Below, piece after piece: positions 21,153 through 22,717 of a stretch of DNA of 32,227 nucleotides (positions within the stretch are counted from its first letter, which is position 1; every line of letters begins with the position of its first letter). The DNA comes from Candidatus Woesearchaeota archaeon (GTDB lineage: Archaea > Nanobdellota > Nanobdellia > SCGC-AAA011-G17 > UBA489). Under the pieces are notes generated by a model that saw only the letters and a list, made by a program, of their open reading frames with translations, was not told the origin of the DNA and made no database searches. A program made the translations under genes and the position numbers. Location of the stretch: the NCBI GenBank assembly GCA_018302985.1, contig JAGVZA010000002.1, forward strand, positions 1 to 32,227, written 5' to 3'.

Positions 21153-21204
21153 AAAAAAAGAAAAAAAAGCCGATGCCCGGGTTTAGAAATAGATGGGCAT
21201 CAGC
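21153..21204 (-). terminator. Hairpin plus T-run terminator of ftsZ
   Basis: On the reverse strand GCTGATGCCC (21204-21195), a 16-nt loop and GGGCATCGGC (21178-21169) pair over 10 bp, then eight T, one C and seven T follow. The stem contains one G-U wobble on the ftsZ strand but an A-C mismatch on the other, so it is shaped for ftsZ-strand RNA. It looks like a bacterial intrinsic terminator, uncommon in archaea where T-runs suffice. Confidence 0.7.
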
Positions 21205-21210
21205 AAGAGT

Positions 21211-21243
21211 CAAAGGGCAGAGATTTGGGGGGTTGCCCATTTG
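21211..21243 (-). other. Second stem-loop between ftsZ stop and terminator
   Basis: On the reverse strand CAAA-T-GGGCA pairs with TGCCC-TTTG (9 bp with one bulged T) around a 14-nt loop containing CCCCCC. Its 5' arm ATGGGCA is also perfectly complementary to TGCCCAT in the 5' arm of the terminator stem, so the two structures can compete. Confidence 0.55.
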
Positions 21244-21260: not shown

Positions 21261-22376
21261 TCAAAAGATTCTTTGTCTTGGTCTATTAACTGGAGCAGAA
21301 GCACCGATCATGTCGATGCCTAAGTCGTCGCTCATAGCCATTTCTTTTGCTGCTGTTTGTTTCTTGGATGAAGTTCTTCCCATCACGTAAGGTGAAGTTA
21401 CACCAGTCATGATAGTCATAACTCTAACACGTCCGTCCATCTTAGGGTCAATTCTTGCACCCATGATAACGTTCGCATCAGCGTCCATAGATTCAGTGAT
21501 AATTTCACCAATCTTGTTAACTTCATCAAGCGTTAAGTCTTGTCCACCTGCAATATGGATCAAAGCACCAGTGGCACCTTGATAGCTCACATCTAAGAGT
21601 GGATTTGTTAATGCCCTTCTTGTAGCTTCTTCTACACGTGCATCAGTATCACTTTCACCAATACCGATAACTGCTACATCACCATTGGTCATGATAGCAC
21701 GAACGTCTGCATAGTCTAAGTTGACTAAGGACGGTACCGAAATGGTTTCGACAATACCTTTAATCATAGTAGAGATTAATTCATTCGCAACTGCAAATGC
21801 TTGTTGGATAGGTAAATTACCTGCGATTTGTACTAGACGATTGTTGTCAATCACGATAACAGTGTCACAAGCTTCTCTCAATTGTTGTAAACCGAATTCA
21901 GCTTTGTCAACACGTGCACGTTCTACGTCAAATGGCATAGTAACTGTTCCGATAACTATTGAACCAGCTTCTCTTGCTAATCCAGCTACGACTGGAGCAC
22001 AACCTGTTCCTGTTCCGCCGCCTAATCCAGCGCAGATAAAGGTCATGTCACAATCTTTTAATTGTGCTTTGATTTCATGCAGACTTTCTTTAGCTGCTTC
22101 AGCTCCTTTTTGTGGATAACCTCCACAACCTAATCCTCTGGTTAATTCTCTTCCAATAAGGATTTTATGATCTGCATCTGTCATATTCAAATGTTGTAAA
22201 TCTGTATTTAGAGCTACAATCTTTGCTCCTTGGATGCCTTTTTTATGAAGCCAAGAAACCATATTGTTTCCACCGCCACCACATCCTACTACTGTAATAT
22301 TTGCTTGACCTACTTTGAGGCCATCTATTGTTGTTGAAGGCATACCCTTCATTGCATCTGAAATGAGACTTTCCAT
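21261..22376 (-). CDS. ftsZ: Cell-division GTPase FtsZ
   Basis: A 371-aa FtsZ that polymerises into the division ring. It has VVGCGGGGNNMV (about 30-40), the tubulin signature GGGTGTG (119-125), the NxxDxA-type GTP contact region and the T7 loop NLDYADVRAIM. The C-terminus ends in NRPRQRIF, a short tail that may bind membrane-anchor partners. Residues before 22 form a short N-terminal extension. A purine-rich AAAGGGGGAAAA precedes the ATG. The TATA box lies about 85 nt upstream, giving a leader of about 60 nt, unlike the leaderless genes around it. Confidence 0.97.
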   Translation of the reverse strand: MESLISDAMKGMPSTTIDGLKVGQANITVVGCGGGGNNMVSWLHKKGIQGAKIVALNTDLQHLNMTDADHKILIGRELTRGLGCGGYPQKGAEAAKESLHEIKAQLKDCDMTFICAGLGGGTGTGCAPVVAGLAREAGSIVIGTVTMPFDVERARVDKAEFGLQQLREACDTVIVIDNNRLVQIAGNLPIQQAFAVANELISTMIKGIVETISVPSLVNLDYADVRAIMTNGDVAVIGIGESDTDARVEEATRRALTNPLLDVSYQGATGALIHIAGGQDLTLDEVNKIGEIITESMDADANVIMGARIDPKMDGRVRVMTIMTGVTSPYVMGRTSSKKQTAAKEMAMSDDLGIDMIGASAPVNRPRQRIF

Positions 22377-22450
22377 GTGTTTTTCCCCCTTTGCGTTCCC
22401 CAGGTTTTGTTTCCTTGTTTGTTTTTTGTTTTTATTGTATATTCTCGAGC

Positions 22451-22487
22451 ACCATAATATTTATATGGTAGTTGAGTATGATACCAT
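22451..22487 (-). promoter_or_regulatory. ftsZ promoter with TATA box inside an inverted repeat
   Basis: The minus-strand TATA element TATAAATA (22458-22465) sits inside ACCATAATATTTATATGGT (22451-22469), an inverted repeat of ACCATA and TATGGT. A further TACCAT (22482-22487) faces ATGGTA (22465-22470). A repressor bound to these half-sites would block TBP. No regulator is adjacent. Confidence 0.5.
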
Positions 22488-22557
22488 CTAAGAAACAAAA
22501 TAAGACTTACTGATTCATGATGTAAGTTTTGAGAAAACAAGTTTCACTAAGAACTAA

Positions 22558-22642
22558 GAAACGCCAATTTCGAGGTTCACGATTTATAATGTGTTTCAAC
22601 CGCCAAGTTGAAATGATATATTGTTTTTTTCCCGCCAAGGAA
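22558..22642. repeat. Three hairpins sharing the loop CGCCAA
   Basis: Within the 381-bp spacer between ftsZ and gatD lie three inverted repeats with the same six-nucleotide centre: GAAA-CGCCAA-TTTC (22558-22571), TTTCAAC-CGCCAA-GTTGAAA (22594-22613) and TTCC-CGCCAA-GGAA (22629-22642). Stems are perfectly complementary but differ in sequence, while the loop is constant. Centres are 39 and 32 bp apart. On the reverse strand the loop reads TTGGCG. Neither the ftsZ nor the gatD transcript is expected to contain them. The rest of the spacer holds promoters, a smaller ACTTAC/GTAAGT inverted repeat (22505-22527) and a 7-bp tandem ACTAAGA. Confidence 0.7.
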
Positions 22643-22717
22643 TGAACAAACGTATAGATATTTTCTATTTCTTAACTTATATATAAACATTGTTTTACTT
22701 CGATAACTATATTGCAC

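Follow-up and report, generated by a model that had tools for sequence, protein, structure and literature searches.

The window, by which we mean the whole stretch of 32,227 nucleotides analysed here, corresponds to contig C15 in the draft genome (1.04 Mb) of Candidatus Woesearchaeota archaeon. It encodes on its - strand an FtsZ protein of 371 amino acids (21261..22376; PF00091, PF12327), whose nearest relatives, at 77%, are found in Woesearchaeota assemblies. A second ftsZ copy, 48% identical, is present in the same genome (G000:C5:6942-7949, - strand) and in most relatives. The ftsZ gene is preceded by a Shine-Dalgarno-like GGGGG (22385..22389, - strand), and it is followed by a hairpin, GGGCA-ACCCCCCAAATCTC-TGCCC, in its 3' untranslated region (21215..21238, - strand) and by a terminator-like hairpin and a run of eight T residues (21161..21204, - strand). 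Here we describe an array of hairpins that lies between ftsZ and the divergent gene gatD, and we consider which molecule, which strand and which function its conservation reflects.

The hairpin array upstream of ftsZ

The hexamer CGCCAA occurs three times on the + strand of this intergenic region, at 22562-22567, 22601-22606 and 22633-22638, flanked by perfect Watson-Crick stems of 4, 7 and 4 pairs, respectively. The middle stem comprises 9 pairs if G·U is allowed. The whole window contains ten copies of CGCCAA where 5.4 are expected, and the seven copies outside the array all have stems of at most 3 pairs. When the + strand from 22488 to 22672 is folded, the three copies form the hexaloops of hairpins H3' (22551..22578), H2' (22589..22619, also matched by the single-hairpin model R2 at E=7e-4) and H1' (22621..22649), and a fourth hairpin with the loop UGAUUCAUGAU forms at 22502..22530. 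The folded stems of H3' and H1' exceed the lengths originally reported, each containing an internal loop. This + strand fold has a z-score of -2.19 vs -0.30 for the - strand of the array, which folds no better than shuffled sequence. This additional hairpin occupies the place of the first CGCCAA hairpin in other families. Its loop is also conserved but differs in sequence (AUCANNANUCA in the ftsZ sense), and it comes first in the antisense RNA of the window's family and of several more; it was noted at loci L062, L064, L066 and L068.

The comparative analysis covered 450 nt upstream of each of 80 named ftsZ loci that were fetched for this purpose. Sites with UUGGCG, the complement of the loop, were taken irrespective of their flanks, and the control was obtained by shuffling 3' flanks among sites. 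The 81 ftsZ loci compared, which come from draft genomes of Woesearchaeota and their DPANN relatives and are not independent events, contain 129 distinct upstream UUGGCG sites. All of them lie on the ftsZ-sense strand; the opposite strand has none. The mean stem at these 129 sites was 4.33 bp, vs 0.86±0.10 with shuffled flanks; UUGGCG elsewhere in the same loci had a stem of 0.76 vs 0.58 shuffled. Held-out loci provided 22 new sites, with a stem of 4.91 vs 1.28±0.41. Exact UUGGCG was present at least twice in 45 of the 81 loci. Conversely, a search of the arrays for stems of 6 bp or more, with no requirement on the loop, gave 100 hairpins, of which 80 have UUGG in the loop. The original prediction, made from this one locus, held that three CGCCAA hairpins stand upstream of ftsZ on different perfect stems that change in sequence and stay complementary around a fixed loop. 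The fold and the comparative tests confirm this observation as real and far beyond chance.

The loop is not identical in every lineage. Variants include UUGGGC, UUGGAC, UUGGCA and UUGAGC, all four of which retain UUNR, and the loops of the antisense strand read CGCCAA, GCCCAA or GUCCAA. One family has CGGCUAA loops, some of which depart from the YUNR consensus considered below. A variant loop is usually shared by all hairpins of one genome (24 loci with the same loop, 4 mixed).

To follow the array beyond these loci we used a model, R1, made of the promoter-like block P2 (see below) and the first hairpin. Within the order, R1 matched 79 of 103 genomes, in almost every case at a single site; within the class it matched 82 of 281, of which 35 lie outside that order. 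The window's own match is weak (E=0.002). Where R1 and ftsZ positions were matched by hand, R1 lay directly upstream of ftsZ on the opposite strand in 31 of 32 genomes. The exception is genome G019, in which the match (C27:18944-19025, + strand) lies on a contig other than that of ftsZ. In 26 loci the next gene past the array is gatD; in others the neighbours, named by eye from their translated starts, are diphthine synthase, a nitroreductase, an HTH protein and others, some of them convergent. Because this neighbour varies while ftsZ stays, the array belongs to ftsZ and not to gatD. A scan of the window's own genome with the single-hairpin model, which had been suggested as a search for further copies, gave no clear site besides the ftsZ locus. 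Some R1 matches outside the ftsZ locus (L179-L181) were weak, as was one match of the single-hairpin model (L183), and none of them revealed a convincing array. In one genome a CGCCAA hairpin is found away from ftsZ inside a long inverted repeat (L182, near 1857; G177:C2:20357-20380, - strand), adjoining a gene that by eye resembles methionyl-tRNA synthetase. A search of viral contigs for FtsZ relatives yielded none.

Strand and candidate promoters of the predicted RNA

Pairs that deviate from Watson-Crick geometry distinguish RNA from DNA and one strand from the other. On the strand antisense to ftsZ, the non-Watson-Crick pairs that lie inside stems with good pairs on either side comprised 44 G·U, 7 A·C and 29 others; counted per locus, G·U was preferred in 29 loci and A·C in 3. 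With a looser hairpin finder the antisense strand gave 38 G·U vs 12 A·C, and the sense strand 10 G·U vs 41 A·C. The same finder applied to the ftsZ 3' untranslated region, where the RNA strand is known, gave 37 G·U vs 18 A·C on the expected strand. A DNA cruciform or operator would accumulate wobbles with no strand preference, and the excess of 44 over 7 falls on one strand only; the selected molecule is thus, as judged from these substitutions, an RNA that carries CGCCAA loops, is read from the + strand and runs away from ftsZ. The wobble bias shows selection on the antisense hairpins, the sense hairpins carrying A·C mismatches, and mutation that is biased by strand could contribute to the excess of G·U. 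Taken with the fold, these data make a conserved structured RNA on the + strand very probable. Folded RNA and extruded DNA had initially been offered as equal options; the RNA half of that proposal stands, and the DNA half does not, since the strand bias requires RNA. The accompanying suggestion of an unannotated small RNA, on the strand with the CGCCAA loops, gains from both the wobble bias and the fold, and its transcription would follow from the promoter motifs described next. A sense-strand element of the ftsZ 5' leader, our first reading, was dropped because the G·U wobbles occur only on the other strand.

The block between the array and ftsZ aligns almost without gaps among relatives and has no RNA consensus fold in RNAalifold. 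On the + strand it reads CGAAA-NN-TTTATATA, resembling an archaeal BRE followed by a TATA box, and we designate this candidate promoter of the antisense hairpin RNA P2 (CATAATATTTATATG in the window, consensus of relatives CGAAANNTTTATATA; 22453..22467, + strand). Over 44 loci the P2 motif scored 9.86 in the antisense direction vs 7.45 in the sense direction and 7.15 in shuffled sequence; P2 in the window itself matches only modestly (9 of 12). A fifth hairpin considered at this TATA-like sequence was rejected for lack of an RNAalifold consensus and because the block reads as a promoter. The spacing from P2 to CTTAGAA is gapless, and an invariant AGAA (columns A48 G49 A50 A51 of the aligned relatives) follows P2 by about 25-28 nt, with the first hairpin next. 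The likely 5' end of the RNA is accordingly set by spacing only, about 25 nt from the TATA box, at CTAAGAAAC (22488..22496, + strand). The predicted antisense hairpin RNA thus occupies 22488..22672 on the + strand; its 3' end, which is uncertain, may lie in the U-rich stretch 22656-22676.

A second BRE-TATA motif, P1 (AACAATGTTTATATA in the window, consensus AGAAATATTTATATA; 22680..22694, - strand), is separated from ftsZ by the array and points toward ftsZ, with a predicted start near 22657. Over 58 loci P1 scored 10.5 in the sense direction vs 9.07 antisense and 8.76 shuffled. The distance from TATA box to first loop is mostly 41-58 nt for P1 and mostly 42-54 nt for P2, being longer in families with an extra first hairpin, including the window's own. 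Between P2 and the ftsZ Shine-Dalgarno sequence no promoter signal was found (motif score 8.07 vs 8.01 shuffled). Since P1 lies beyond the array and no promoter signal lies nearer, the ftsZ mRNA most likely has its 5' end ahead of the array and includes the hairpins, as UUGGCG loops, in a leader of about 280 nt (22377..22657, - strand). The original prediction placed the hairpins between the promoters of ftsZ and gatD and held that neither transcript should reach them; for the ftsZ transcript this is probably wrong. On motif evidence, the directional P1 and P2 at fixed spacing may mark an antisense gene that has its own promoter and overlaps the leader it would control.

The type of ribosome site and of 3' untranslated region in ftsZ goes with the presence of the array. 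In array-bearing loci the ribosome site is usually GGGGG, and the 3' hairpin has CCCCC in its loop, the window's own having a C-run complementary to its GGGGG; ftsZ loci that have no array mostly have GGAGG and no C-loop. In distant lineages the 3' loop is (U)CACCCCCAA, which we take to resemble the 16S tail. Pairing of the GGGGG with the C-loop is plausible from complementarity, and the corresponding duplexes are slightly better within than between loci, a marginal difference (p=0.027). Inspection of the ftsZ Shine-Dalgarno sequence and 3' untranslated region by eye showed no fitting complement of the CGCCAA loop.

A possible countertranscript of ftsZ

The analysis thus gives a structured + strand RNA with an invariant loop on drifting stems, conserved promoter motifs and spacing, and linkage to ftsZ. 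We consider it reasonably probable that this RNA is a countertranscript that kisses the UUGGCG loops of the long ftsZ leader and so lowers FtsZ. P1 would start the ftsZ mRNA just before the first hairpin and P2 the antisense RNA just before the last, the two convergent promoters facing each other across the array and each RNA folding into the same series of hairpins. The mRNA would expose UUGGCG loops and the antisense RNA the complementary CGCCAA; the loops would kiss first, a longer duplex would form after, and FtsZ output would fall, whether through transcriptional collision, through attenuation at the third hairpin and its U-run, or at translation. The antisense RNA would in this manner act as a dosage brake on cell division. 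Production of both RNAs, their kissing and the consequent drop in FtsZ are what we infer from the array. The stems would be free to drift because a cis-antisense pair is complementary whatever its sequence, and the loop would be fixed because fast pairing needs its sequence and shape. YUNR U-turns speed the pairing of sense and antisense RNAs (PMC6562991). UUGG is an instance of YUNR, so that in most of the hairpins one of the two partner loops fits this U-turn, and the stem, held-out, fold and wobble tests point to stem-loops that are stable and whose loops are complementary.

A symmetric kissing model would call for tighter constraint on the mRNA partner loop than is seen, given the A·C mismatches of the sense hairpins. 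The data are also compatible with an antisense RNA that has another target or a protein partner, and the stability bias toward the antisense strand leaves room for this. In particular, P2 may drive a stand-alone small RNA whose CGCCAA loops bind a protein or distant mRNAs in the manner of CsrB/RsmZ, its adjacency to ftsZ reflecting co-regulation only. Such a sponge would account for identical loops on different stems in two to four copies, for loops that change together within a genome, for the P2 motif, and for a G·U bias confined to the antisense strand. However, UUGR is fixed on the sense strand across deep lineages, a pattern explained by a U-turn and less obviously by a C-rich protein site, relatives keep P1 beyond the array with no other promoter signal for ftsZ, and no second array was found in the window's own genome. 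We regard the stand-alone RNA as unlikely, roughly a one-in-five proposition. A sense-strand ftsZ leader acting in cis as a protein site or ligand switch, with no antisense RNA, is improbable: P1 does place the array within the leader, and the GGGGG and C-loop suggest post-transcriptional control, but the sense stems favour A·C, the sense strand of the window folds no better than shuffled sequence and P2 points the opposite way. A DNA-level element, cruciform or palindromic operators, would suit inverted repeats between divergent genes and is very improbable, given strand-asymmetric wobbles, arms unrelated in sequence and a single orientation at all 129 sites. Equally hard to credit is a gatD 5' leader, suggested by the position of gatD downstream on the same strand in the window, for the array persists where gatD is absent or the next gene is convergent, and a separate TATA-like box serving gatD lies near 22717.

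Returning to the countertranscript of ftsZ, a broader version, which we advance only tentatively, is that an ancient chromosomal antisense counter for division exists in DPANN archaea, that its plasmid-like UUGGCG/CGCCAA hexamer, repeated three times, evolved independently, and that it works together with a 3' C-loop masking the ftsZ GGGGG. A deeply conserved structured RNA tied to ftsZ is in any case a named and testable candidate regulator of DPANN division. If the mechanism is true, one kissing-loop hexamer has arisen convergently in plasmids and archaeal chromosomes, and the rules of fast RNA pairing become testable across domains. A literature search gave no text match for UUGGCG together with antisense RNA and no paper on a DPANN ftsZ antisense RNA; the study of archaeal antisense mechanisms has been described as in its infancy (PMC5867862).

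The array was at first thought to resemble no described element. Rfam 15 covariance models gave no match to it at their gathering scores, which agrees with that view; Phe_leader and anti-hemB scored weakly, below cut-off, on 3' untranslated region hairpins. A text search for an Rfam family named ftsZ-DE returned nothing. The layout, which is shared by ColE1, R1 and ColIb-P9, and the hexamer are nevertheless those of plasmid antisense copy control. In ColE1, RNAI and RNAII are transcribed from convergent promoters, the antisense RNA can pair with the 5' portion of its sense partner, and each has three stem-loops. The array is likewise predicted to have convergent promoters, an antisense RNA against the beginning of the sense transcript and stem-loops in the two RNAs; unlike ColE1, it is chromosomal and archaeal, precedes the protein gene ftsZ, takes no part in plasmid replication and repeats one loop sequence rather than presenting three different loops. 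The CsrB/RsmZ sponge RNAs repeat one loop on a number of hairpins whose stems differ, as does the array, but its loops (CGCCAA, GCCCAA or GUCCAA) contain no GGA.

StfZ, a cis-antisense RNA near the 5' end of ftsZ in E. coli, lowers FtsZ when overexpressed (PMC9628754). The predicted RNA resembles it in its position antisense to the ftsZ 5' region; StfZ is bacterial, is produced as isoforms of 366-552 nt from three promoters and has no known conserved CGCCAA array. For the Inc RNA target of ColIb-P9, the title of Asano et al. 1998, as cited in PMC10724649, gives the loop motif as 5'-rUUGGCG-3'. No leader peptide or pseudoknot partner was found at the array, which unlike ColIb-P9 and R1 has three to four tandem hairpins and belongs to a different domain of life; homology is not implied. 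The array nonetheless shares with ColIb-P9 Inc RNA and R1 CopA-CopT (IncI, IncB and IncFII; PMC10724649) a UUGGCG target loop and a CGCCAA loop of the same polarity in the predicted antisense RNA, and the loop kissing of these systems is what we propose for the ftsZ leader and its antisense RNA.
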